A stretch of 64,000 bases of DNA from positions 1 through 64,000 of IMG/VR virus record IMGVR_UViG_3300021185_001264. One strand, given 5' to 3'. This document shows, one piece after another, positions 13,389 through 62,354 of this stretch (its first letter is position 1; every line of letters starts with the position of its first letter). Source of the stretch: a virus. A program made the translations under genes and the position numbers. Under the pieces are notes generated by a model. It saw nothing but the letters and a program-made list of their open reading frames with translations. It ran no database searches and was not told where the DNA came from.

Positions 13389-16300
13389 TTATTGTTCTTC
13401 CCACGTGCAACCTATGCTTACCTTGTCAGCGGTATGTCCTGCCGATGTATCAGAATCTACTGCAAAATAAAGACTATCCGCTTGATTTGTTAGCGGGAAC
13501 GATAGATATTCTTTATTATAATCAAAGTATGGGCTTAGGTCAAGTTGCTCTGTTCCCTGTTGTAAGTATATAGTTGCTACGTTTACACCGCTATTAGGAA
13601 CAGGCACTACTGTATTACTCGAAATTTTAATTGAACTTAAACCTTCTTTTTCTGAAGAAACTTTGGTCGCTACTGATTGAGCGGCAATTGCTCTTGCTGG
13701 ATGCGTGCCAGTTGTAAAGTTTTGGGCAGAGCCTGATCCAGGATATTTTCCATCTGCCTCGAATCTAGCATCTGGCAAGAATGATCCAGCTTTCAACTGT
13801 ATTGTGCCATTATATGATTCGAGAAGTTCGAAGTAGTACTCATCAGATTCTTTATACAGTCTACCAAACACTGTGACATCATCTGATCCAACAATTGCTT
13901 GGAACCAACCAAAGAGACTTTCATTATTATCAAAATATGATCCAGCGCCAGTCGATTCAGTTACTCCGACTGTACTCAGAGGATCGTTTAAAGCCGTGAG
14001 TGTATAAGGAGCATTTAAAGTAAACGAGCCAGAATACACAGTGTCAGTTTGGAAAATAGGAGTCTTTTTAAATCTCATACGAATAGGATTATTTCCTAAA
14101 TTCGATGTTGATAATTTAGTTGGATAAACCTGAACTCTATTTCGGACTGCATTCGAATCCTGCGTACTCAAAATTACTTTCTTAGTTTCAAGTTCATAAG
14201 TAGCATTTGCTCTATCCACAAGAAGTTGTACGCTAGTAGTACTTGAAGGAACACCGTCAAGATAAACTTTAGTTGTATCAGCCCAAATAACTTTAATATT
14301 CTGATCTGTTCTGTTACTACTTTTAAACTTAGCTCCCATAAAGAATCTAGGGTCAACTGCGGTCGAAGGATTGGTATAAGCTACACCTCCTATAGTTTCT
14401 CCTGATAATGTAGTTGCATTAATATTAATAGCATTATTTGCAGAGTCATAGTTACTTGTGTTCTTAATCGTCCACTGTTTGCCGTAAGCGTCTTGAGTGT
14501 CTTCGTTGTTATGACTGTACAATCTAACTGTACCTCTGTCACCACCATCGATATAGTATGAAGCACCGTATTTTACGATTGAATGTGAATCAGATCCATA
14601 GCCTCTATTGACGTAATTTATATCTTCTTGATCGCCTAGAGATTTTTGATCACCGCCACCATATGTGTTGTATGTAATGGGAAGTGTCGCATTACCTAGA
14701 GAGGCGTTCTTGTATTGATTGGAAGCACGTAAATGATGGACTCGTACCCACCTTGCTTCTCCGTTATCGACAGGAACGTATGCTAAGAACAATGCGCCAA
14801 CAGCTCCATACCATGAGAATTCAATCTTAAGCATGGTAACTTTAGTAAAGTCAAAGTTGTATAGGCTTTCCGTAAACTTGGCCTCGCCTAATACTTTGTA
14901 TATTTCTCCTGGGCGGGCAGTACCTGTCTCTCCAGTAGCAACATCACTATACACTCTTTGTTTAGCAGGAGGAGTTGTTAATTCAGTTCTTCCGTCTAAA
15001 GTGTCATGACTGTATCTTGATCTAGGCACACGATAATCGTATACACCCCAATACTCAGGCTTAACATTGAATCTTACCCAAGTAACAAAATGTGGATCAA
15101 AGTTTATGTAATCAATTTGTTCACATACTTCATTTAACTTAGCGCCATCAGATAAATCGTTTGCAGTGTTTATGTATCCAACACGTTTACTTGTCGTAGC
15201 ATTATCGCTCTTAAGATTGCCGTCAAGTGCGTACATGTAAGGAAATACCATTCCTTTTGGGAATACATCGTCATTTACATCAGTAATGCCCAAAGCTGTC
15301 CTATAACTAGTGGGATTGTATCCATGATATCCCTTTTCAATAGCAGGAATATATGAATTGGCGCCAGTTAAATCTTGTTTTATCTTTTGACCCGAAGATG
15401 TCGAGTCAGGAAGAGTCGTACCGGTACTAGGGAAGATGAACGGAACAACTGTTTCTACTTTAAGGTTGTTAACACTCGTTGCGAGGAAGGTTTGAGCAGT
15501 ACCGCCTTCATCTTCTAACGTAAATTCGTTGCCCTTTGGTCCAATAACACTTTTCACTTTATACACTTGACCTGCTACGAGTCCTGTTTTTCCGCCAGTA
15601 TTTGCCACAGTAGTTTTAACTTTGACGTGTCCCTTAAACGGAACTACGCCTTTAGTCAGTTTAAGTTGATCGTTAGTATCAGAGACTGCCACAATTTCTT
15701 CAATTGGATTCAATAAATCTGGATCATATACAGCAGAGTGTGTTAAGATAATGCCGTCTCGCATCGCTACTAAGTTACCCGCAAACCCATTACTGCCGAT
15801 TTCCATCTTCAGAGTATCTTCTCGGCTAAAATTACTAATAACTCTGCCTGCAAGAGCAGTAAGTTTAGCGTGTTCTGCGGTTGAAGAACTATAACCTAAT
15901 CCACCAGAGTTGTTGTTACTTGCGTTTATAGTAGACCCGGCGATATTGGCCGTTCCGGCAAAGTCAGCAAGTATCAGAGTCCTCAAATGAGTGTGTCGTT
16001 CAATTTCTAAGGCCGCAGTCGCATTCTGTGAGTAAATTGACATTCCGTAACCAGGAGTATCACTACTGGGTCTTCCTCCTTTGAAGTACATAGACATGTT
16101 ATATTTCGTTTCTGCATCACCACCGCCATCAATATCATTTCCATATCCACCTATGATATAACCTAAGTCTCTTTGACACTTGTATTTTATTTCTTCTGGT
16201 GTAAATCCTGGAGCCGAAGACAGTGTTGCCGCTTGGCCATTGGCTTTGTAGTTAGTTACGTAATATGCCCAGTAATAAGACTTAGCCGCAAAGATCGTAT

Positions 16301-17537
16301 CGATTTTGCTTCTTGTTCCATAATCATTATTTGATATAGTAGGAAGTGCTGGCTTGGTATTAGCTGATACGTTAAAGGCTGTTATTACGATATCAGCTAG
16401 AGTAGTTATTTTAGCTGTAGCCGCTGAAGATATACCAGCAAACGCAAGCAACTTAGCTTTCAGTGCTGTATGGGTGATCTTCTCATAACGCTGTGGATTA
16501 GGTAAGATTGCGTTTGCATAGTTACTAAGGTTAAGTATAGTGTGGTTCTTACCGCCGTATTCCATATCTAGTAGATAAAAATCTATCCAGTAGTCTAGAT
16601 CACGCTTACACTTCTCTTCCACTATCGCCTTGTTCGCCGCTGAGCCTTGCCCACTGCCGTAGATTGATACTGCTAGATCAGCATAGTAATCCGCACTACT
16701 ACCTGTGCCACTTATACCCTGATATAGTCCAGTGCCGGCGGCATAGTCCCCTACGACTTGAGTCAAAGCACTATTAATAATCGTAAATCTATTTCTGAGA
16801 ATAAGTTCACGATCTTTGACTAGAAGCACACTAGGCTCAATACCTTCGCTTGCACCTTGACCTATAATACGAAAATCGTCAAATTGTGTTGTGCCCAAGT
16901 TTTGATTACCGGGTGCTCCGCCTTTAAGTTTTTGTGTTGCGATTCCTGTTGGAGAATTTGGACATTTTGTCAACGACTGTGAGCGCCTAACTACAGCGAA
17001 GTTATCGCCTTCCGAGTTATTTCTAGTTTCCCAAAAGTATCCGTCAAAATTATCAAAGATTCCGAATTTGCGAACAGATGGATTCTGTGAAAAGTCTGCA
17101 ATACCTGTAGTACTTTTAACTCCAAACGTTGCGGCTGATACACGACCAGGCTGATATCTAAAGAAACGCTTAGATGTGAGAACTGCTGTTTTGTTTCTAG
17201 GTGCTTCCACCAGTGCGCCAGCTTCTGTCGGTATGTGTTGAATACCGTGCCCAGTAATATGATACTGAGGCGAAGATGACCACTCTGTAGGGTTAACATC
17301 ATATGTGTTAACGTCTGCGAAGATGCCTAAAGCAACTTCGGCACGTGGAATACCTAAGAGAGAAAGCGCAACTTCCGACTGTACCTTGTTTTGCTCCTCA
17401 ACCGGAATAGCAGCCTGATCTGTAGCCATTACGACTGGGATCGATTTAGAAGCAGGCTGTGCACCAGGAGAAACAGGCGTGGTACGTCCGACGTTGACTA
17501 CGCTTGCGTTATTATTTACATTTGTTATACTTGACAT
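13389..17537 (-). CDS. Giant virion protein, paralogue of 10035-13385
   Basis: 1382 residues. The N-terminus (ASVVNVGRTTPVSPGAQPAS, then KSIPVVMATDQAAIPV) is a low-complexity attachment segment of a type seen in phage structural proteins. The conserved core shared with the 1116-aa neighbour follows: LLGIPRAEVALGIFADV near residue 62, FRYQPGRVSAATFGV near 128, FSWYGAVGALFLAYVP near 910, YGASYYIDGGDRGTVRL near 990. Between residues about 230 and 560 there is an insertion absent from the paralogue. It has KCQRDLGYIIGGYGNDIDGG and a second related block with CKRDLDYWIDFYLLDMEYGG, which suggests an internal duplication. A structural tail role is inferred from context. Confidence 0.8.
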   Translation of the reverse strand: MSSITNVNNNASVVNVGRTTPVSPGAQPASKSIPVVMATDQAAIPVEEQNKVQSEVALSLLGIPRAEVALGIFADVNTYDVNPTEWSSSPQYHITGHGIQHIPTEAGALVEAPRNKTAVLTSKRFFRYQPGRVSAATFGVKSTTGIADFSQNPSVRKFGIFDNFDGYFWETRNNSEGDNFAVVRRSQSLTKCPNSPTGIATQKLKGGAPGNQNLGTTQFDDFRIIGQGASEGIEPSVLLVKDRELILRNRFTIINSALTQVVGDYAAGTGLYQGISGTGSSADYYADLAVSIYGSGQGSAANKAIVEEKCKRDLDYWIDFYLLDMEYGGKNHTILNLSNYANAILPNPQRYEKITHTALKAKLLAFAGISSAATAKITTLADIVITAFNVSANTKPALPTISNNDYGTRSKIDTIFAAKSYYWAYYVTNYKANGQAATLSSAPGFTPEEIKYKCQRDLGYIIGGYGNDIDGGGDAETKYNMSMYFKGGRPSSDTPGYGMSIYSQNATAALEIERHTHLRTLILADFAGTANIAGSTINASNNNSGGLGYSSSTAEHAKLTALAGRVISNFSREDTLKMEIGSNGFAGNLVAMRDGIILTHSAVYDPDLLNPIEEIVAVSDTNDQLKLTKGVVPFKGHVKVKTTVANTGGKTGLVAGQVYKVKSVIGPKGNEFTLEDEGGTAQTFLATSVNNLKVETVVPFIFPSTGTTLPDSTSSGQKIKQDLTGANSYIPAIEKGYHGYNPTSYRTALGITDVNDDVFPKGMVFPYMYALDGNLKSDNATTSKRVGYINTANDLSDGAKLNEVCEQIDYINFDPHFVTWVRFNVKPEYWGVYDYRVPRSRYSHDTLDGRTELTTPPAKQRVYSDVATGETGTARPGEIYKVLGEAKFTESLYNFDFTKVTMLKIEFSWYGAVGALFLAYVPVDNGEARWVRVHHLRASNQYKNASLGNATLPITYNTYGGGDQKSLGDQEDINYVNRGYGSDSHSIVKYGASYYIDGGDRGTVRLYSHNNEDTQDAYGKQWTIKNTSNYDSANNAININATTLSGETIGGVAYTNPSTAVDPRFFMGAKFKSSNRTDQNIKVIWADTTKVYLDGVPSSTTSVQLLVDRANATYELETKKVILSTQDSNAVRNRVQVYPTKLSTSNLGNNPIRMRFKKTPIFQTDTVYSGSFTLNAPYTLTALNDPLSTVGVTESTGAGSYFDNNESLFGWFQAIVGSDDVTVFGRLYKESDEYYFELLESYNGTIQLKAGSFLPDARFEADGKYPGSGSAQNFTTGTHPARAIAAQSVATKVSSEKEGLSSIKISSNTVVPVPNSGVNVATIYLQQGTEQLDLSPYFDYNKEYLSFPLTNQADSLYFAVDSDTSAGHTADKVSIGCTWEEQ

Positions 17538-51901: not shown

Positions 51902-52861
51902 TTATAATCCGTTTGGTATTAGTACGTAATGTATAGTCAGAACTATGGCAACTGAAGCACCTAGTCCAATCATCATCTTCTGAAAGTCTCTTGCCACTAA
52001 CGGGAATACAGATTTCATTTTCATCTTACCTGTAAAAGTTGCGATAGCGAGTTCACGACCAGCAAGCATACCTACGAAGACCCACGTAGTTGACATAGGA
52101 ATGTCGTTGAGTTCTTTGAAGAAATACAGGCATAACCAATAGAACAGGTCGATTAAAGTCGCACTACGGACATATCTTGTGTTATGCTTCTCTAGTACAA
52201 TCTGTTGTATCTTGCCACCACGCTCTCTGAACATGAAGAAAAGACCCACAACAAACACACATGATATTAGCATCATTAGATCAACTGGTACGACACGTGG
52301 TAGAAACACAGCAATATTAGCCATGTCATGCGACAGCCAAGTCCACCAGAGTCCACCTGTTGCGAACCACTGCGCTATTCGCCAATAGTTTTTGTTCTTC
52401 TCTTGCACTGGTTCTGCTTCATCAAGTGTACGTGATACAACGTACCACACACCGTATGCGAACAGAGCGGCAATACCATAACCCATGATGCTCTTCATCA
52501 ACATCTTTTCTAGCACAAAAGTACTCGCAAAAGCACTCAACACTAAAAAGGATGTTGATACTGGTACACCAAGTCTGGTAAGTAGTACGAGTATTCCTGG
52601 TGCGGCGGCATGATACCACTGAACTTCTTGCCAGGGAATCTTATTCAATCGACCATAGCTGATGTCTCCACCGTTTACAGTCCAACCATACCATAGTGTC
52701 GCTAGTAATACAGCACTTGCGGCTGCCCACATAGTCTTGTAATTGAATCGCTCATTGTTTGATGCCATCCAAGTGCCGAGCGTCTGCACTGAATCATTTG
52801 CAATCACCGCATAAGCGGCAAAAAGGAACCCAATAAGGCTCCAGGTAGTTAGTAGTTCCAT
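51902..52861 (-). CDS. PiT-family phosphate permease
   Basis: 319 residues, with about nine hydrophobic helices. PiT (PHO4) proteins have two inverted repeats with a GAND signature. Here the first is AVIANDSVQTLGTW (Asn22-Asp23) and the second WLSHDMANIAVFLPR (Asp179, Asn182). Each is followed by the P-x-S-T motif: GVPVSTSFLVLSAF and DIPMSTTWVFVGMLAGRELA. The family imports phosphate with protons or sodium at the inner membrane. At 319 residues it is shorter than most bacterial PiT (about 400-500). AAGGAG precedes the ATG. A host-derived auxiliary gene that could feed phosphate to phage DNA synthesis. Confidence 0.88.
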   Translation of the reverse strand: MELLTTWSLIGFLFAAYAVIANDSVQTLGTWMASNNERFNYKTMWAAASAVLLATLWYGWTVNGGDISYGRLNKIPWQEVQWYHAAAPGILVLLTRLGVPVSTSFLVLSAFASTFVLEKMLMKSIMGYGIAALFAYGVWYVVSRTLDEAEPVQEKNKNYWRIAQWFATGGLWWTWLSHDMANIAVFLPRVVPVDLMMLISCVFVVGLFFMFRERGGKIQQIVLEKHNTRYVRSATLIDLFYWLCLYFFKELNDIPMSTTWVFVGMLAGRELAIATFTGKMKMKSVFPLVARDFQKMMIGLGASVAIVLTIHYVLIPNGL

Positions 52862-52931: not shown

Positions 52932-53618
52932 TTATTTAATTTCTGGAAATAACGATTCTGATATGAATGCATCGACATCATCCGAATCAAGACCCAAACT
53001 TTTCATCACATTTGGGGTATGTGGATTCATCTTCTGATGCTCTGCATAATAGTTTTGCGATGCTTTGCCTAAATCACTGTCAGCGTATCCGTTATACTTA
53101 CCAATGTTTTTCTTGTAGTAACACAGACCTTCTTTGGCAACCTTACATATCTGATCGATCTCTGCTGGTTCTTTGACCATACCAGCGGCAATCATGCTAT
53201 CACTGAAGATTGCTTTTGCCCATGGCGGCAGTTCTCGTTCTCTTTTCCATTGTAATGGTTTGGCAATTGTTGCGAAGTGTTCCATCATAGGATGTTCTGA
53301 ATTAGACGTAGAAGAGAAATCATAAAATGCACCTGTCATCTTATTGGCACCTGCAATCACATCAAACCCGTATATTGGTCCGTCATTATGTGTATGAGGA
53401 AAGACACATACATGCATCATCCACAGCTTCTTCTCTTCACGCATATCGACCACATCAATGTGTGCCCTACGATAATTGTTATTTGACCATACTCTGTTTA
53501 CCCAACCAGGCTGATTGAATCTATCCATACCAGGCTCACGTATTTCAGTAGCATCTGATGATAGCTGTTCGATTAGATTGTTTTGAAGATCAATCAAACT
53601 ATTCCATATAATAGACAT
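52932..53618 (-). CDS. Ferredoxin-dependent bilin reductase (PcyA/PcyX-like)
   Basis: 228 residues. The family core is clear: WSNNNYRRAHIDVVDMREEK, LWMMHVCVFPHTHNDGPIYG, FDVIAGANKMTGAFYDFSS. His69 and Asp86 are 17 residues apart, the same spacing as the catalytic His88/Asp105 of PcyA, and the remembered phage enzyme PebS lacks that His. It therefore belongs nearer the PcyA/PcyX side, where viral PcyX enzymes turn biliverdin into a reduced bilin. Electrons would come from host ferredoxin. The start overlaps the stop of the small membrane gene (TAATG); heme oxygenase lies one gene upstream. Confidence 0.88.
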   Translation of the reverse strand: MSIIWNSLIDLQNNLIEQLSSDATEIREPGMDRFNQPGWVNRVWSNNNYRRAHIDVVDMREEKKLWMMHVCVFPHTHNDGPIYGFDVIAGANKMTGAFYDFSSTSNSEHPMMEHFATIAKPLQWKRERELPPWAKAIFSDSMIAAGMVKEPAEIDQICKVAKEGLCYYKKNIGKYNGYADSDLGKASQNYYAEHQKMNPHTPNVMKSLGLDSDDVDAFISESLFPEIK

Positions 53619-53764
53619 TACAGCACCGTTGCTCCGACTACTGTCGTAACTATTATTAAGACGTATAAACCATACATCATTATACTTAATTTTTCAAGTC
53701 TTTTCTGTCTCTCTCCAAAAGCAACCATCAATCTTTCGAATGATTCATCCAATTCGCTCTTCAT
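53618..53764 (-). CDS. 48-aa one-helix membrane protein inside the bilin operon
   Basis: 48 residues from the ATG at 53764, which has GAGGAG seven nt upstream; a longer in-frame start at 53833 has no such site and overlaps heme oxygenase more. The N-terminal half is a charged helix (MKSELDESFERLMVAFGERQ), and the C-terminal half one membrane helix (MMYGLYVLIIVTTVVGATVL). It overlaps the heme oxygenase end by 20 nt and the reductase start by one base pair of codons (TAATG). No family recognised; it could tether or regulate the bilin enzymes. Confidence 0.7.
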   Translation of the reverse strand: MKSELDESFERLMVAFGERQKRLEKLSIMMYGLYVLIIVTTVVGATVL

Positions 53765-54302
53765 GCAATAACTCCTCAAATAGTCTAATCGCAAATGCAA
53801 AGCATTTATTTGCTTCATCTGCCATATTATCATTCAACAACAGTCGAACATTCTGCTTCATCTCTTCTTTGTTTTCAAACTGATACATGGTACCACTACC
53901 AGGAACACGTTTTGCAATGATAGCACCACCGTACATATCTCCAAAGTGTCTTACATATAAGTGCGAGATGATTCCGTCTACGTCTTCGTTCATTAAAAGG
54001 TTTTCAATGTGTCCGACATATTCTTGGGTTGACTTGCATATGAGTTCGCTATAGGTAAATCCGTAGATTTCCTCAAGTTCATGCATGTCATCTATGATCT
54101 TTTTTGCCCTAAAAATTGACCTGAACTCTTCTGGAAATGCGAGTTCACGCAACGCTGATTCGAGAACAACGTAGTTCTGGGACTGATTGATTAAGTATCT
54201 GTAATATAGAAAGGGATCAATATTACCACTGAGTAATATCTTGGCAAAATCTTTACGTTCTGCTGATCTATGGTTTTCTGCCGTTAGCTGTTTTAAATTC
54301 AA
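53745..54302 (-). CDS. Heme oxygenase
   Basis: 185 residues. The N-terminal LTAENHRSAER contains the proximal heme ligand His11, and the distal helix reads HLYVRHFGDMYGGAIIAKRV with the G-D-x-x-G-G motif (121-126). The enzyme opens heme to biliverdin, iron and CO, giving the substrate of the reductase two genes downstream. The start is TTG at 54302 with GGAG seven nt upstream; an in-frame stop two codons earlier rules out a longer form. The leader carries a 9-bp inverted repeat. Confidence 0.9.
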   Translation of the reverse strand: MNLKQLTAENHRSAERKDFAKILLSGNIDPFLYYRYLINQSQNYVVLESALRELAFPEEFRSIFRAKKIIDDMHELEEIYGFTYSELICKSTQEYVGHIENLLMNEDVDGIISHLYVRHFGDMYGGAIIAKRVPGSGTMYQFENKEEMKQNVRLLLNDNMADEANKCFAFAIRLFEELLHEERIG

Positions 54303-55744: not shown

Positions 55745-57796
55745 TTATTTAGTCGTTGGGCGATACACTCCATCCCAATCTTTAGGCAGTTCTCTAGTCT
55801 TCATCTCTTTGCATCGATCAATCCATACGTCATAATATCCGTCCATAGTGCCTAAAAAGCACCCCTTTAAGTCATCACAGAACTTGATTGCCATGTCAAA
55901 TTTCTGCATTCGATATAAATCTAGCATCTTTATGTGCTGTTTAGTTTCAAATACATATGCAGAGTTTTCATTCCACCAAGAGTGTTCTCCTAGAACAGTG
56001 AAAATTCGTACACCTTCGTTCTTGCCCTTTACAGCAATACAGTCTAGTTCAAGTGTGGCAAATACATCATCGATCTCTTTTGCCGTCTCTTCTCCAATAA
56101 TAGTTTTCACGCCATATCCTTTCGTTTGTCCTTCGAGTCTGGCTGCCAAATTCACTGCATCTCCTAACACAGAGTAGTCGAACCTTTGCTCAGACCCCAT
56201 ATTACCAACAACGACTGCGCCGCTATTGATTCCTACGCCTATATTTATTGGTAACAAACCGTCACTCTCTAACTCAGCATTTAGGACTTCTAATGCTTCG
56301 TACATTTGTACGGACGTCAAACACGCTTTTCTTTCTTGCTCTTCTACATCAAGAGGAGCATTCCAGAAAGCCATAATACAATCGCCCATATACTTGTCAA
56401 TAGTACCCTCATTCTCCATAATGATATTAGTCATAGGAGTTAAGAATCTATTCACAAGTTCTGTCAGACCCTGTGGATCCGTCTTATATTGCTCTGAGAT
56501 GGGTGTAAATCCACGTATATCACAGAACAAAAATGTCATATGTTTAGTCTCTCCACCGAGTTGCAGTAACTCAGGATTCTTTTGTAGTTTTTCTACCATA
56601 GGTGCTGATAGATATGTGCCAAACTGTTTCTTAATTCGCATCTTGGCGAAGTACTCTTGCCCGTATTTGACTCCATACACGTGAGCAAACACTAGTATAG
56701 CCATCGCACCTTGCATCATTATGATATATAATTCTGCATAATTGTTGAACCAGTATATAGGAAAGTATATCGATGATCCGATCAGCAATAGCGGTGGTAC
56801 CCAACCAAATCTCACATAACTCAATCCAACTATTAGTATACCTAATCCTAGAATAGTTGCAAGTTTAGCAAAATCAGCAAGAGGTGGAGTTACGATGTTG
56901 TATTGGTTTTTGACTGAGGTAAATGCTCTTGCAGTTACATCATGTCCATATGCGGCACCTGATGCTGTCGGCACTGGGTTAGATATTCCGTCTGCTGTTA
57001 CACCCACGAATACTGTTGCACCTTTTAAATCGTCAAACTCTGTAGTTAGATCGTATCGTTTAAAGTCATAGTTTGGATTTATCCATATACGGCTTATTGG
57101 ATCTGTATTGATTGTAGGAAATCCTTTGACACGAACTGCCTGTACTCCAAACTCATTGCTCTTAACCTGAAACGTATTTGACCCAGTGTATGCCTTGAAT
57201 ATCTCTAAGATGATTGATGGGTAGAGTTTATCTTGTACGCCAGCAATCATAGGTAATCTTCGAACTACTCCGTCAATCTCAGGCAATGTGTTTGCAATGC
57301 CTATGCCAGTAGCGGCATTTTCATACTTCTCTAAGTTTGCGGCTATGCCAGGATAATTGTAAATATAATCCAAAGCATCACCACCAACCTGTACAATAGC
57401 TGTACTGTATGCGGATCTATTCTGAGCCTTATTGCTAGGGAAGTGAGAAAGAATGACTCCGTTCGGAAGCATGAGCGTGAAGCCTTCGTCTTCACCTGTT
57501 CGATCTTCTTCTGGAAATGATAGATTAAATACGATAACACCTGCATTCGCTTGACGCAATCTGAGGATTAAATCCCCATAAATGTTTCTTGGTAGTGGGT
57601 ATTGTCCATGTACTTCTAAAGTCTTCTCCGAGATGTCTACGAGAACGACATCCTCAATGAATTGCTTTTCCTTTACGATCAACTGGTCACTGATTCTCAG
57701 ATCAATGCTCTGAAGCAGTGTAGGATTTAATATTGTTAGCCACGTTAGAGTTAACGTAGTGATGATAGCGAATAATGGCGAAAGCAGTATTTTCAT
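55745..57796 (-). CDS. CHASE2-transmembrane-class III nucleotide cyclase
   Basis: 683 residues. N-terminal anchor helix (8-28), CHASE2 sensor in the periplasm (about 30-305: VVLVDISEKTLEVHGQYPLP, VIVFNLSFPEEDR, GATVFVGVTADGISNPVPT), then three membrane helices (about 307-375) and a cytoplasmic cyclase domain (about 415-600). Catalytic residues are visible: metal Asp426 (LFCDIRGFT) and Asp472 (KYMGDCIMAFWNAP), base-recognition Lys468 and Asp546 (SVLGDAVNLAARLE), and Asn549/Arg553. Lys and Asp at the base sites point to ATP, so cAMP is the likely product. It appears intact. GAGAGG precedes the ATG. It follows the curli/FecR genes in the same direction. Confidence 0.9.
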   Translation of the reverse strand: MKILLSPLFAIITTLTLTWLTILNPTLLQSIDLRISDQLIVKEKQFIEDVVLVDISEKTLEVHGQYPLPRNIYGDLILRLRQANAGVIVFNLSFPEEDRTGEDEGFTLMLPNGVILSHFPSNKAQNRSAYSTAIVQVGGDALDYIYNYPGIAANLEKYENAATGIGIANTLPEIDGVVRRLPMIAGVQDKLYPSIILEIFKAYTGSNTFQVKSNEFGVQAVRVKGFPTINTDPISRIWINPNYDFKRYDLTTEFDDLKGATVFVGVTADGISNPVPTASGAAYGHDVTARAFTSVKNQYNIVTPPLADFAKLATILGLGILIVGLSYVRFGWVPPLLLIGSSIYFPIYWFNNYAELYIIMMQGAMAILVFAHVYGVKYGQEYFAKMRIKKQFGTYLSAPMVEKLQKNPELLQLGGETKHMTFLFCDIRGFTPISEQYKTDPQGLTELVNRFLTPMTNIIMENEGTIDKYMGDCIMAFWNAPLDVEEQERKACLTSVQMYEALEVLNAELESDGLLPINIGVGINSGAVVVGNMGSEQRFDYSVLGDAVNLAARLEGQTKGYGVKTIIGEETAKEIDDVFATLELDCIAVKGKNEGVRIFTVLGEHSWWNENSAYVFETKQHIKMLDLYRMQKFDMAIKFCDDLKGCFLGTMDGYYDVWIDRCKEMKTRELPKDWDGVYRPTTK

Positions 57797-57821: not shown

Positions 57822-57986
57822 CTATTTATCAATCTTTACACGAGGTCTCCAGTGTGGATTTTCGACATATTCTAGCTTTTTCGTTGGTCTGTACATGAAC
57901 TCTCCATTGTCCATTTTTAGCTTCTCGACCTTTCCAGTGTTTACCCACTTTGATGTCCAACAGACTACAGGAGATTTCTTAGTCAT
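57822..57986 (-). CDS. 54-aa hypothetical protein between curlin fusion and cyclase
   Basis: 54 residues, basic, Trp- and Lys-rich (MTKKSPVVCWTSKWVNTGKV, then EKLKMDNGEFMYRPTKKL). The ATG at 57986 overlaps the end of the curlin-fusion gene by 8 nt, and the stop is 25 nt before the cyclase ATG. No signal peptide, so cytoplasmic. Function unknown; too short for common ORF cut-offs. Confidence 0.65.
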   Translation of the reverse strand: MTKKSPVVCWTSKWVNTGKVEKLKMDNGEFMYRPTKKLEYVENPHWRPRVKIDK

Positions 57987-59265
57987 TTTGATATATCGTT
58001 AAGTTGCAACCACCGGTGGCATTACATGTACCATTCACGCCAGAACCGTCTGTCATGGTATGTGGTAAAGTGTATGTTTTATTAGATGCTCCTGCTTGAT
58101 TTAGTTCGAAGTTCCAAGGCTCTGATCCATCTAGTGCAATTGTGGCTTCGTGGTCTCCACTTCCAGACTGAACCACATCAACCTCATGACTGTCTCCCTC
58201 GACATCTAAGTCTAAGTAATGACTGCCTGAACCAGTCTGACTGACTAGTACATCGTTTAAATCTCCATCAATACGTACAAACGCTCCTTTGTCTCCACTG
58301 CCTTTTTGTATAAGATCAAATTCATTGCTGTCACCTAGAATAGCGATTTCGGTATACCCATGAGCGCCTAGATCCATGTCTTGATCAATGTCGATAGCGT
58401 TGGTATTCCCTAGTATCGATAGTAATACGTAACTGGGACCACCTGCTTGCTCTATGAATATGTCATTACTAGAACCGTCAATGTCCATTTCAATAGTGTT
58501 TCCTTGTCCGTTGTCTGCCAGTACTTGAGCGGCGGCCACTCTCGTTGCTTGTGCTGTTGTTAGTCCTGAAGATCCATATACTGGAGTAGGAGCAGAAGTT
58601 GTAGTAGATGATGCTAAGAAATTTCCCATGTTATCTGCGTAAGTGTGTGTTGACGTTAACTGTCCGTATCCAAACGTCACAATTACCATTCCATCTCCAT
58701 AATCCCATACGTACCAACTATACCAAGTTGACGTTGAACTATTTGCGGCCATTCCTTCACCACCGCTTGCTGTGAATAGGTAATCTGGACCTGGCAGAAC
58801 GTTTTCACTTGAGGTGCTTGACGCATAATCTCCAATTGCCACTGAGCCGTAGCAATTATTACATCCGTTTGATAGAGATATGCTTCCCACGCTCATCACG
58901 TTTTCTATAAGAGATTCGATATTACCGATTCTATTCGTTGCACCATTAGGTGCCGCAATGATTAGTGTTCCACCACCGTCAACATAGCTGTCGTATACGT
59001 TTCTACAGTTACTACCACAGTTTGACGTACCTGCTATATCAATAACCATGTCCATATTACTCACATCGTTTGAACTCACCGATGTCGTATTACTGCCTGA
59101 TACAGTCCAGCCTGCATCCTCTAATATACTTTTTAGGTTAGCGTAATGTGCGCTGGTAGCATTGGTATAATATATAAACACACTATCTGCATAAGCATTT
59201 GTTGGAATGAATAGTAGTAATATGAGTGCTAAACTACTGAGACTGCGTAATATTGATGATAACAT
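57979..59265 (-). CDS. Exported protein: Rossmann-like domain fused to curlin-type repeats
   Basis: 428 residues from the ATG at 59265 (GGAGG five nt upstream); a GTG two codons earlier would overlap that site. Signal peptide to about residue 26 (ALILLLFIPTNAYA). Residues ~28-220 resemble a class I glutamine amidotransferase-like/ThuA fold without catalytic residues (VFIYYTNATSAHYANLKSIL, MDMVIDIAG, YVDGGGTLIIAAPNG, DGMVIVTFGYGQ). Residues ~245-425 contain five to six curlin-like repeats (G-x-x-N-x-x-x-x-x-Q): SSNDIFIEQAG, NTNAIDIDQD, DSNEFDLIQKGSG, DLNDVLVSQTGSG, DSHEVDVVQSGSG and WNFELNQAGASN. The start overlaps the FecR gene by 32 nt. A nucleator or cell-anchored curli subunit is a reasonable guess. 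Confidence 0.8.
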   Translation of the reverse strand: MLSSILRSLSSLALILLLFIPTNAYADSVFIYYTNATSAHYANLKSILEDAGWTVSGSNTTSVSSNDVSNMDMVIDIAGTSNCGSNCRNVYDSYVDGGGTLIIAAPNGATNRIGNIESLIENVMSVGSISLSNGCNNCYGSVAIGDYASSTSSENVLPGPDYLFTASGGEGMAANSSTSTWYSWYVWDYGDGMVIVTFGYGQLTSTHTYADNMGNFLASSTTTSAPTPVYGSSGLTTAQATRVAAAQVLADNGQGNTIEMDIDGSSNDIFIEQAGGPSYVLLSILGNTNAIDIDQDMDLGAHGYTEIAILGDSNEFDLIQKGSGDKGAFVRIDGDLNDVLVSQTGSGSHYLDLDVEGDSHEVDVVQSGSGDHEATIALDGSEPWNFELNQAGASNKTYTLPHTMTDGSGVNGTCNATGGCNLTIYQND

Positions 59266-60340
59266 CGCCACCTCCGTTTAGTGTGATCAGTGCTGGCACC
59301 GCATCTTTGTACATATTTACTTCTCCGTCGGTATCTCTAGTAGTCGTGACACTTGTGATGTGTGTCGAACTTTCACTAAAAACACCAATTGTTTCTTCAT
59401 CATAGTATGCCTGTACGATATCTCTATACTGATTATATGTAGGCAACACTGGATCTATTTCTAACTGTTCACCTCGCAACATTGCGGTGGCATCTAAAAT
59501 GTTTACAAGAAAATCGATGTCTAGTCGGTTGATGTCGAGTTCTAGAAATTCTAATTTATCTTCTTCCAAATTATCGTCATTAAGTTCTGAGTATTCTAGT
59601 AGGTCACTGTCCAAATATTCTGAAGCTTCAGCTTGTGCGATATATCCTACACCCTTCAACTCATCAGGTGGTGCAATGATTAGCATATTGTCAATACCTC
59701 GACCGTCAAGATCAATAATCATGGGCTTCGATGGTAATGACATTCCATCAGACACTAGTGTTGCTTGAAAAGCTTGATTGAGTATTACCATACCAATATC
59801 AGTCGCTACCTCGATTTCTCCTGTCCAACATGGATCACCATTTGAGGGACAAGTAGGAAGAAGTATTACTAGACTCCTGCCTAATTCGTCTACCGTCATA
59901 GTAAAATCTGTTCCTCTTACCGATATAGTAGCAGTGGGTGTTCTAAGTTTGACATTTTCTCTAGAATTTGCGGCAATGGCACCAGAAGAATATCTCACTG
60001 TTCCCAGTGCAACATTCATAGCAAGTTTGCCTGTTCCCGCATTGGGATCGTAAATGAAGTCATCAATCACTAGCGTACTTTGCTCAGATATGCTTACCTT
60101 AGTATCATCTTCAAAAGTAAGACCCATTTTGGTCTTAGCTGTAGATATCTCATCATTCATTGAGATGCCAACACCTTTACGAGATTCGATTATCTCGCTT
60201 TCACCTCTTTTTATCTGTGCGGCATTACCAGTTTGCTCAGTAACGCTTCCTACTTCATCCACACTAGCACTAGCAAATGTGTTTAGTGTAATCAATAAAA
60301 GTGATAGTAAAACACTAGTTCTGTTTAATGTCAATGACAT
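59234..60340 (-). CDS. Exported FecR-domain protein
   Basis: 368 residues. Signal peptide to about residue 25 (LLSLLLITLNTFASA). The FecR domain is at about 30-150: RKGVGISMNDEISTAKTKMG, LTFEDDTKVSISEQSTLVID, VALGTVRYSSGAIAANSREN, VKLRTPTATISVRGTDFTM. The rest (LDRGI-type segments, acidic EYSELNDDNLEEDKLEFLEL) is not recognised. FecR-type domains occur in sigma-regulator systems but also in exported proteins beside CHASE2 cyclases. There is no transmembrane anti-sigma part here. It overlaps the curlin gene upstream by 26 nt and the fusion gene downstream by 32 nt. Confidence 0.85.
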   Translation of the reverse strand: MSLTLNRTSVLLSLLLITLNTFASASVDEVGSVTEQTGNAAQIKRGESEIIESRKGVGISMNDEISTAKTKMGLTFEDDTKVSISEQSTLVIDDFIYDPNAGTGKLAMNVALGTVRYSSGAIAANSRENVKLRTPTATISVRGTDFTMTVDELGRSLVILLPTCPSNGDPCWTGEIEVATDIGMVILNQAFQATLVSDGMSLPSKPMIIDLDGRGIDNMLIIAPPDELKGVGYIAQAEASEYLDSDLLEYSELNDDNLEEDKLEFLELDINRLDIDFLVNILDATAMLRGEQLEIDPVLPTYNQYRDIVQAYYDEETIGVFSESSTHITSVTTTRDTDGEVNMYKDAVPALITLNGGGDVIINITQSQ

Positions 60341-61004
60341 TACTGTTGCCGTCTACTGTCATAGTAATTTTAGGCGAATCGTTACCGTCTTGCAATATAT
60401 CAATACTATTGAAACTACTTGAAGCTGTGCCACCTACCGTAATAGTGTTAACAGCATCAGCGGCATCCAACTCCATATTAATTGAGTTGTAGTCACCATT
60501 TGCAACGATAGTAGTTTTGGTATCCACTACAGCAACTTCAGTTGTACAGCCAGCAATAGTTCCAGATTGTGTTACTGAACTACCACTACCACTTACAGTA
60601 CCAGTAGTAGCCTTTCCGCTGCCGTCGTTAGTTCCACAGACAGTTACTAAGTTACTATCACCAGTTATTGTTGAAGTGATTTCAGTGCCAGTAGAGGCAA
60701 TACCTATTACCGTTTCGTTACTGTCACCAGTATTGACGATTGCAATATCTGTGTCATTGGATCCAGCGGCAGTAGATATGTCTGTCTTGTTGCTGTTACC
60801 TGTTTGAGTGATATCAATATCTTGGCTGTTACCTGTTAATGTTGTTGCCGTAGTTGAATTACCAACTAAGTTGCCATTTCCTGTTTGGACAATGTCAATA
60901 GTAGATGAACTACCAGCCTGATCTATATACACATCACTAGCAAACGCTGGCGCTGTGATTGCACTTAATAGTGCTAAAATTAAAAGTTTCTTATTAAAAC
61001 TCAT
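60315..61004 (-). CDS. Curlin-repeat protein (CsgA/CsgB-like)
   Basis: 229 residues. Signal peptide to about residue 22 (LLILALLSAITAPAFA). The mature chain contains curlin-like repeats with the N-x-x-x-I-x-Q-x-G pattern: DVYIDQAGSSSTIDIVQTGN, GNSQDIDITQTGNSNKTDIS, TDIAIVNTGDSNETVI, and at the C-terminus FNSIDILQDGN plus VDGNSNVIDIKQN. The middle part is less regular and carries two Cys. Such repeats stack into a beta solenoid and form amyloid fibres outside the cell. AAGGGAAAG precedes the ATG. The 82-nt gap to csgG holds a small GTCC/GGAC hairpin but no clear promoter. Confidence 0.85.
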   Translation of the reverse strand: MSFNKKLLILALLSAITAPAFASDVYIDQAGSSSTIDIVQTGNGNLVGNSTTATTLTGNSQDIDITQTGNSNKTDISTAAGSNDTDIAIVNTGDSNETVIGIASTGTEITSTITGDSNLVTVCGTNDGSGKATTGTVSGSGSSVTQSGTIAGCTTEVAVVDTKTTIVANGDYNSINMELDAADAVNTITVGGTASSSFNSIDILQDGNDSPKITMTVDGNSNVIDIKQN

Positions 61005-61086
61005 ATTACTTTCCCTTAAATGTCCACCTGGACTTATTTGTTATGTTAAATTATTCTCCTCTTTTTTCCATATCAAAACAAAAATG

Positions 61087-61875
61087 CTATTTAACGAAGT
61101 CCCAGTATCCTTTTCTGGCACCTTCTTTAATTAACTCTACAACCGATTGCTCGATTGCTACTCTGACTGCGTAGTTTACAGGTTCATTGATAGTGTGTCC
61201 CATCTCTGCCTCTAAACTATTAGTTCCCATATCAAAAAATCTAAAAAATGTCATGGAGGTACCTGTGCTTATAATCGTCTTTGTTGTTGAGACACTTATT
61301 AACACTTCTCCTGACTGTACACTCACCATTCTCATAGTAATAGTTACGATGTCTTGACGATACTGAGTACTAGGACCAACTCCTAAATACCTTGCTCCTG
61401 CTCCTCCAGTCAAAACATTCGAATCATAACCTATGATGCCGCCTTCTACTAATACTCCAGCGAACAACATAGGTCTTAATGCTCTTTCATCTCCGACAGA
61501 TGCTCTACTTTGTCTGATTATCTGCCGTTCTTTTGTTAAATTCTCTAGCCCTACTCTTTCTACTACCTGAAACCATTCACCATTACCTACTTCTTGTAAA
61601 GCCTTAATCAGCCAAACTTCAGCACCTTGAGTTACCGCAGTACTTATATTTGCCATTCTTTCACTCGGCTTTCGTTGACCTGTTTTGTCTTCAAAGCCAT
61701 ACACTGCAACTACTGCTTTGCCTGTTGATGGCCCCTTTATAGTCAAAAACTCAGTATTCTCGTTTTTGATTACTTTAGCAGGTTCCGGCTCAGGCATAAA
61801 TCCAAAGTCTTCAGTAAGTGTAGCACATCCGCTAGTCAGTAGCAAAAGTGCTGATATCATAAAAAAGTGTTTCAT
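61087..61875 (-). CDS. csgG: CsgG-type curli secretion channel lipoprotein
   Basis: 262 residues (E. coli CsgG 277). The lipobox LLTSGC puts the lipidated Cys at 17. The core is clearly CsgG: VVAVYGFEDKTGQRKP, ANISTAVTQGAEVWLIKALQ, WFQVVERVGLENLTKERQII, LFAGVLVEGGIIGYDSNVLT and GGAGARYLGVGPSTQYRQDI, then SGEVLISVSTTKTI. CsgG forms a nonameric outer-membrane pore for curli subunits. In the pore loop the Asn is kept, but the position of E. coli Phe56 is Ile and Tyr51 is replaced. The C-terminus stops right after GYWDFVK, lacking the E. coli tail. The start overlaps the csgF stop (TAATG). Confidence 0.93.
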   Translation of the reverse strand: MKHFFMISALLLLTSGCATLTEDFGFMPEPEPAKVIKNENTEFLTIKGPSTGKAVVAVYGFEDKTGQRKPSERMANISTAVTQGAEVWLIKALQEVGNGEWFQVVERVGLENLTKERQIIRQSRASVGDERALRPMLFAGVLVEGGIIGYDSNVLTGGAGARYLGVGPSTQYRQDIVTITMRMVSVQSGEVLISVSTTKTIISTGTSMTFFRFFDMGTNSLEAEMGHTINEPVNYAVRVAIEQSVVELIKEGARKGYWDFVK

Positions 61876-62354
61876 TAGAATGCAAAATCTCCAACTGGTA
61901 CATCGAACTCAGAAATTATATCACCGTTTGAGTCCTTTATAGTTACATATATTCTTCCGTCTAGTCTCATCCATGATATCTCATCGCCAAAAGGTGACTC
62001 TGCAATATACCATTCTCCGTCAACTGTTCCTTCACCTGTCTCACCAAAAAGTTGGTCCGCAATATTCTTAGATAGAGTAGCATAAATTCTTGATTCCAGA
62101 TTGTTCTGGAATTTGTATGCGTTAGTACTTTTACGTTCTCTCTCTAATCTGTCTTCCTCTGCTTTCGCCTCGTCCTTTAATTCCTTTTTTCTGTTTGCTT
62201 GTATTTGCTCAATGGTCAAAATGTGCGAACTGTATCCTTGACCGTTAAAGGCTGGGGACAAAAAGTCATGCGTCAACTCACTTGCGTTTACCAGATTTGG
62301 TATTAACATTACTGACAGTGTTAGTGTTAGTCCTTTCAATAGTCTCTTTTTCAT
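61875..62354 (-). CDS. csgF: CsgF-type curli assembly factor
   Basis: 159 residues (E. coli CsgF 138). Signal peptide to about residue 24. The mature N-terminus (ELTHDFLSPAFNGQGYSSHI) corresponds to the segment of CsgF that plugs into the CsgG channel (F-x-N-P-x-F-G-G in E. coli). A charged helix (KKELKDEAKAEEDRLERERK) and a C-terminal beta part (DGRIYVTIKDSNGDIISEFD) follow. CsgF links CsgG to the nucleator at the cell surface. It starts inside the end of the upstream gene (77-nt overlap) and ends in csgG. Confidence 0.85.
   Translation of the reverse strand: MKKRLLKGLTLTLSVMLIPNLVNASELTHDFLSPAFNGQGYSSHILTIEQIQANRKKELKDEAKAEEDRLERERKSTNAYKFQNNLESRIYATLSKNIADQLFGETGEGTVDGEWYIAESPFGDEISWMRLDGRIYVTIKDSNGDIISEFDVPVGDFAF

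Follow-up and report, generated by a model that had tools for sequence, protein, structure and literature searches.

A phage heme oxygenase-PcyX cassette with an added small peptide, and candidate bilin-binding domains of predicted phycobiliprotein fold in phage tail proteins

Introduction

Phage cassettes that pair a heme oxygenase (HO) with a PcyX-type ferredoxin-dependent bilin reductase (FDBR) have already been published, and passages of PMC11480375 describe them in marine and freshwater phages as hemO-pcyX and hemO-pcyX-valaS arrangements. The same passages describe pcyX as phage-only and give Asp55 as the PcyX-specific catalytic residue, its absence being the explanation offered for a CB_2 phage enzyme that makes PCB. 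Curli-type genes, which recur near the cassette described below, are published for pelagimyophages and for Melnitz in parts of PMC7029224 and PMC9004378, and the word "bilin" occurs in neither paper.

Here we analyze a window, by which we mean the whole stretch of 64,000 bases taken from a partial IMG/VR virus record of 66,783 bases, whose baseplate, gp32, and helicase-loader genes mark it as that of a T4-like phage. The operon in the window is the known HO-PcyX cassette with one new part, a small peptide that we call S. In asking who uses the bilin, we arrived at a family of repeats in phage virion proteins whose predicted fold is that of phycobiliproteins, and two distant members of that family appear to lie in a tail-fiber-like protein of the window itself.

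Results

The cassette and its surroundings

The three genes are encoded on the minus strand. HO (53745..54302, 185 aa) begins at a TTG with GGAG 7 nt ahead of it and matches Pfam PF01126 Heme_oxygenase (E 9.6e-16); S (53618..53764, 48 aa), a charged helix followed by a single C-terminal hydrophobic stretch, overlaps HO by 20 nt; and the PcyX-type FDBR (52932..53618, 228 aa; PF05996 Fe_bilin_red, E 8.6e-13) overlaps S in a TAATG. This confirms the three-gene operon read by the first-pass annotation, including its TTG-start HO and both overlaps. HO and FDBR occur together in 79 of 81 relatives, and the pairing is therefore more than chance; the two relatives without the pair (L021 and L023) are contigs that start inside the cassette.

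Adjoining pcyX is a 319-aa membrane protein (51902-52861, minus strand) that most of the nearest relatives retain at this place; it has no match in Pfam, PHROGs, or NCBIfam, and a search of 50,697 phage records gave none either. A curlin-repeat protein with its neighbors, a CHASE2 cyclase, and a cell-wall hydrolase are found near the cassette, both in the window and in many of its distant relatives. The window's CHASE2-adenylate/guanylate cyclase (55745-57796, minus strand; phrog_35576, E 3e-182) is 37% identical to proteins of Melnitz and HTVC008M, and the genes of the curlin-repeat protein and its neighbors (57979-62354, minus strand; phrog_37870, 20175, and 35372) recur near HO-pcyX in distant relatives. 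A search of 16 records found AlaS in 7, and in the S-bearing relative L018 it is placed just upstream of HO-S-pcyX by coordinate arithmetic.

Residence of the cassette on a host chromosome was considered and rejected, as five of six genome-contig matches (L095-L099) are phage-like contigs binned into MAGs, an assignment judged by eye from gene content. The remaining match, L100, comes from a bacterium (Shewanella surugensis), but there (L100:5453-6225) the FDBR frame that comes after HO stops at 74 aa. Elsewhere the same genome has a second FDBR (L117:1405-2175), with Asn replacing Asp55, near apparent transposase genes. Of 398 Pseudomonadota genomes one had an FDBR, that one being the Shewanella genome used as the center, and of 369 genomes of the class of G302 two did; a search of plasmids gave no match. 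Among the binned contigs, L098, which is 335,231 bases long and comes from a Neomarinimicrobiota MAG, carries HO, FDBR, and AlaS along with ClpS- and Hsp20-like genes recognized by eye, and it is perhaps a large phage. The search within Pseudomonadota also turned up a genome (G748) with three FDBR-family genes on three contigs (L128, L130, and L131).

The host of the phage is likely not a cyanobacterium, judging from sequence features. The window has a permuted tmRNA of alphaproteobacterial type (RF01849, RF04321; 51368-51763, minus strand) with the tag ANDNFVSSDYALAA, and its baseplate gp6 has its best match in Sinorhizobium phage phiN3. The first-pass annotation had also supposed a non-cyanobacterial host, and these two features agree with it, but a tmRNA of this type is reported as well for Melnitz, a phage of a gammaproteobacterium (a part of PMC9004378), which softens the argument. 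Naming a host from the tmRNA was rejected, with short matches only, in 41 of 398 genomes, the best having an E of 5.5e-7 over 40 bases.

HO and the PcyX-type reductase

HO has the marks of the HO-1 type, with the proximal His11 in 77 of 80 aligned rows (gaps in the other three) and Gly121, Asp122, and Gly125 of the distal-helix G-D-x-x-G in 79 of 80 (one gap). In the reductase, Asp55, His69, and Asp86 are found in all 82 rows; the His and Asp occupy PcyA positions 88 and 105, so that the His69/Asp86 pair noticed earlier at PcyA spacing is joined by Asp55, a position at which the four PcyA reference rows have Glu (PcyA Glu76). The closest isolate match is the reductase of the pelagiphage Mosig, at 50.7% identity, and the closest solved structure is PDB 5owg (PcyX_EBK42635; E 1.8e-72), with PcyA 2d1e at 1.7e-9.

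For the phylogeny, 80 full-length rows were cut to 43 at 93% identity. In the resulting 59-row FDBR tree, whose root is not fixed, whose outgroup branches are saturated, and which leaves out alphaproteobacterial PcyA and the CB_2 vPcyA, the window, 5owg, and Mosig fall in one 26-row group (99/96) and the four PcyA rows form a separate group (100/100). Tree rows labeled gammaFDBR, our own label, come from G748. The tree and the invariant Asp55 together rule out a plain cyanobacterial PcyA, and of the PcyA/PcyX-type assignment made at first pass, the PcyX placement holds. HO and PcyX with phycoerythrobilin (PEB) as the predicted product are well supported at the level of sequence, and the reductase would convert biliverdin to PEB.

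The small peptide S

S is a real gene. Across the window and nine other S-bearing loci (10 sequences, 45 pairs, codons outside the overlap), it is under purifying selection, with a mean pN of 0.160 against a pS of 0.615 (pN/pS 0.26). In the S frame pN reached or exceeded pS in 0 of 45 pairs, compared with 26 and 39 of 45 in the two other frames, for which pN/pS across S was 1.07 and 1.83. Searches of Pfam and PHROGs for a family gave weak, mixed hits, and the earlier description of an unknown membrane peptide can now be sharpened to a selected coding sequence with no family match. By tblastn, S was found in 16 of 81 reductase loci, and ORFs of like make-up fill its slot in five more (L014, L016, L019, L022, and L026), with the result that the slot between HO and pcyX is occupied in 21 of the 31 loci examined. 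The L023 contig carries an L022-type S. Judged from HO-FDBR spacing, S is absent from L015, L024, and L025 and from more distant loci including that of Mosig, which restricts its position between HO and pcyX to one subclade.

We guess that S anchors HO and PcyX to the membrane or couples their translation. A competing explanation, to which we give a little less than an even chance, is that S has no tie to the two enzymes and is a small phage membrane protein, such as a holin-like protein or an exclusion peptide, that was inserted in the operon by accident. Its hydrophobic tail would suit such a protein, as would the hemolysin and holin names of weak PHROG hits (E 0.03-0.08). S also weakly matches a small protein encoded among the structural genes of other phage contigs, at eight loci where no HO or FDBR was found. 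The fixed location of S argues the other way: it takes the same HO/pcyX slot in most loci examined, it is tied to both enzyme genes by overlaps in the window, and in a single-protein scan with S, all 14 of the 14 confirmed IMG/VR relatives lay in pcyX contigs. The small protein of the eight loci (L102-L109) is a 77-aa protein with a charged helix and a C-terminal hydrophobic stretch, alike at about 50% over 34 residues to the S of L018, and we treat this likeness as a shared membrane-helix motif.

A repeat family with a predicted phycobiliprotein fold

When 16 records, 15 of them viral with the cassette and one a MAG, were searched with the Phycobilisome family, matches appeared in three, inside giant frames, with that in G752 above the Pfam cut-off (E 7.3e-8, 30.6 bits). 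The matching stretches are tandem repeats that carry a C-x-R-D motif. One repeat (L146:3574-3993) was modeled by template-free AlphaFold2 with 27 aligned phage repeats as the sole sequence input, and reached a pLDDT of 90.5 and a pTM of 0.86. In a Foldseek search of the PDB, ranks 1-30 were all phycobiliproteins, the best being 7f86_C (E 8.1e-3, probability 1.00, TMq 0.77); no match fell under E 0.001, and after rank 30 came RsbR and then phycobiliproteins mixed with unrelated chains. VIA-align placed phycoerythrin beta 2vjh_B first, with a Z of 16.1 and an rmsd of 1.8 over 125 of 140 residues, on a scale where helical models can reach a Z of about 14 without clear kinship. The result nevertheless carries weight because every top row comes from one family, the best 50 rows all being phycobiliproteins, one of which (8u0f) is titled a bacterial fluorescent protein. 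A search of BFVD found the same fold in cyanophage tail proteins and in uncultured Caudovirales.

Profile comparisons agree with the model. Of the 32 PDB sequences matched by the 27-repeat profile at E<=10, with a best E of 0.0027, all but one were alpha chains of phycocyanin or allophycocyanin (31), and the alignment sets the C-x-R-D of the repeats on Cys84-Arg86-Asp87, the bilin attachment site. The Cys, Arg, and Asp are kept in at least 90% of the 27 repeat rows, and most other positions vary. In a wider set, C.RD occurs in 40 of 56 domain rows from 15 sources, with six rows stopping short of the site; some repeats are without the Cys, and neither of the two in P-SSM4 shows C.RD. On the strength of the L146:3574-3993 model, we regard a phycobiliprotein fold for the family as well supported. 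The fold alone does not prove a ligand, and we infer bilin binding.

Two candidate domains in a tail-fiber-like protein of the window

Within the window, the likeness to this family is found in a 1382-aa virion structural (tail-fiber-like) protein (13389..17537, minus strand; phrog_1645, E 9.3e-27). Domain A (residues 242-394; 16356..16814, minus strand) has KCKRD, with the C-x-R-D at about 16599-16610, and domain B (residues 412-575; 15813..16304, minus strand) has KCQRD, with the C-x-R-D at about 16167-16178, and thus both carry the motif. Because window rows had entered the iterated profile, iterated E-values for the window are circular. With the A5 profile, made of 20 rows that exclude window-type rows, domain A scored 11.1 bits and domain B 9.0 bits; these are the two best scores among the 210 window frames, they fall in the same protein, and both lie on the motif, whereas the best of 4200 shuffled frames reached 8.7 bits. 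Profile-profile alignment with hhalign, one comparison each, gave a probability of 81.7 and an E of 1.1e-5 for domain A, and 93.4 and 2.5e-7 for domain B. An ortholog of the protein, 49% identical over 1145 aa, is present in G757, which also carries an HO-S-pcyX sequence, and domain B of this ortholog matches the A5 profile with an i-E of 4.6e-8.

Other searches gave fainter signals. A Pfam scan of domains A and B found nothing, and a predicted model of the window domains, from three sequences, had a pLDDT of 39.8. Against the PDB, the signal fades once window-type rows are left out: the A5 profile had five hits, two of them phycocyanin (best phycocyanin E 0.5), the A6 profile of domain A had a single hit, allophycocyanin beta at E 0.96, and the A7 profile of domain B had two hits, both unrelated. 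Taken together, the comparisons suggest that the window domains are distant members of the repeat family.

Distribution of the domain and of bilin lyases

Among 26 records scanned, the domain was found in 8 of 15 cassette-bearing IMG/VR records, the remainder of which may be fragments, in 6 of 6 cyanophages, and in none of four T4-like phages of heterotrophs (Melnitz, HTVC008M, phiN3, and Cr30), in which we know of no bilin genes. G752 (399,796 bases) has 42 domain matches, the majority in frames 6682 and 4122 aa long. A cyanophage-type query picked out 379 of 50,697 phage records, and apart from six named "Marine" these bear the names Synechococcus, Prochlorococcus, or cyanophage; a G750-repeat query matched 34, from cyanophages and one marine virus; and the two-domain stretch of the window matched none. 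The complete genome of Mosig, with HO and FDBR, shows no domain, and neither does P-SSM2, which a passage of PMC2984593 describes as having bilin reductase genes; both phages speak against a strict coupling of bilin genes to the domain. The isolates that show the domain are ones with access to bilin, a pattern that kinship could also explain: presence of the domain tracks phage kinship, and its distribution may reflect descent.

The CpeT lyase was found in 5 of the 26 records, all of them cyanophages (5 of the 6 domain-bearing cyanophages), and in none of the 16 non-cyanophage bilin-gene records; CpeS was found in 0 of 18 records. With neither CpeT nor CpeS in the non-cyanophage records, attachment there would be autocatalytic, performed by another lyase, or non-covalent.

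Discussion

We propose that the phage makes PEB to load its own tail fibers, a reading we hold to be about evenly poised between right and wrong. During infection, HO would open host heme to biliverdin IXalpha, which the PcyX-type reductase, with host ferredoxin, would convert to PEB, while S probably holds the two enzymes at the membrane or links the translation of their genes. The bilin would not be destined for host photosynthesis; it may instead be attached through the Cys of Cys-x-Arg-Asp to phycobiliprotein-fold domains in the phage's own tail-fiber-like protein, giving a pigmented virion that is perhaps photoprotective, light-responsive, or light-gated. For cyanophages the host would be the source of the bilin, and CpeT may take part, whereas non-cyanophages would rely on self-attachment or on another lyase. 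The photoreceptor, antioxidant, and heme/iron purposes named at first pass for the bilin were open guesses; while the PcyX placement that accompanied them stood, the evidence now points to a virion protein that may hold the bilin, a purpose absent from the first-pass list.

The alternative that fares best is that the biliprotein-fold domains are bilin-free structural spacers of marine T4-like tail fibers, and that their sharing a genome with HO and PcyX is a coincidence of kinship; this explanation is plausible, but we think it somewhat improbable. It would account for the many domain-bearing phage records (379) set against the few cyanophages with bilin genes (HO in 8, PcyA in 16, and PebS in 9 of 153 cyanophages, as given in a section of the review PMC10452541), for the repeats that have no Cys, and for Mosig and P-SSM2, in which bilin genes and domain are separated. 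Against it, the Cys, Arg, and Asp rank with the most conserved positions of a repeat that varies at most others, and the hosts of cyanophages make bilins, so that these phages would need no bilin genes of their own.

Ordinary auxiliary metabolism, in which HO and PcyX free iron from heme and dispose of biliverdin while the tail is unrelated, seems to us unlikely. Iron supply is discussed in a passage of PMC11480375, and Mosig combines the cassette with a putative ferrochelatase and several putative 2OG-Fe(II) oxygenases but has no biliprotein-like domain. Yet freeing iron needs no second enzyme specialized for PEB, and the AlaS that accompanies the cassette in 7 of 16 records and the putative ferrochelatase beside the cassette in Mosig weigh against a purely iron-directed role: making heme merely to open it gains no iron, and the bilin therefore looks like the product. 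A third alternative, in which the bilin goes to a host light sensor or to some other protein of the phage, for example a phytochrome, is highly improbable in our view. A passage of PMC11480375 describes HO and PcyA of a freshwater phage as able to provide phytochrome Cph1 with its chromophore, but no phytochrome-type gene is among the window genes scanned by Pfam and PHROGs, a set that leaves out some small ORFs and comes from a partial record.

If PEB does load the tail fibers, a further conjecture is that phages build pigmented, light-sensing virions in which light changes the PEB-loaded fiber and gates adsorption, which we consider doubtful, with perhaps some chance of proving correct. It is known that adsorption of S-PM2 depends on light, and this phage has nine domain matches; P-HM2 has five, the best with CARD at the motif. 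Several marine cyanomyoviruses are described as adsorbing in a light-dependent manner in a passage of PMC2984593, and a passage of PMC7112961 states that P-HM2 cannot adsorb in the dark and that P-SSP7 infects in the dark. No domain match was found in the 45-kb genome of P-SSP7. The contrast between P-HM2 and P-SSP7 is suggestive only, because the latter is a podovirus whose tails are quite different. The light-sensing reading, if true, would explain both PEB synthesis by phages of non-photosynthetic hosts and the cyanophages that adsorb only in light.

A tail protein that binds bilin would represent a new category, and we found no precedent for a phycobiliprotein-fold virion protein in bilin-making phages in openly licensed PMC papers. 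It would give phage PEB synthases a purpose outside photosynthesis, suggest a client for the CpeT of cyanophages, and make the light-dependent adsorption of some cyanophages directly testable.

The closest described systems share parts of this arrangement. The cassette of the Mosig EXVC030M type (a section of PMC11480375) likewise has HO followed by a PcyX-type FDBR, 51% identical to that of the window, in T4-like phages, but it is without S, whereas the window has S together with a curlin-repeat protein and a CHASE2 cyclase beside the cassette. The hemO-pcyX-valaS cassette of the same source resembles relatives of the window in which AlaS is nearby. The PEB-forming PcyX_EBK42635 (5owg) matches the window FDBR over nearly its full length, with equivalents of Asp55, His69, and Asp86, though it sits on a different branch within the 26-row group. 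Phycobiliproteins such as phycoerythrin beta (2vjh) and phycocyanin alpha (1f99) share with the repeat the predicted fold and the alignment of Cys84-Arg86-Asp87 with C-x-R-D, but they are alpha and beta antenna subunits, whereas the phage repeats are arranged in tandem in giant virion proteins, have about 15-22% identity to them, and are candidate bilin binders. Finally, the BBAGs of heterotrophic bacteria, which part of PMC10151467 describes as bilin-binding globins with a link to pre-PcyA, are, as here, a non-photosynthetic relative of phycobiliproteins found with HO and an FDBR; they are bacterial and have been shown to self-assemble with bilin, whereas the phage domains are located in structural proteins, away from the cassette.
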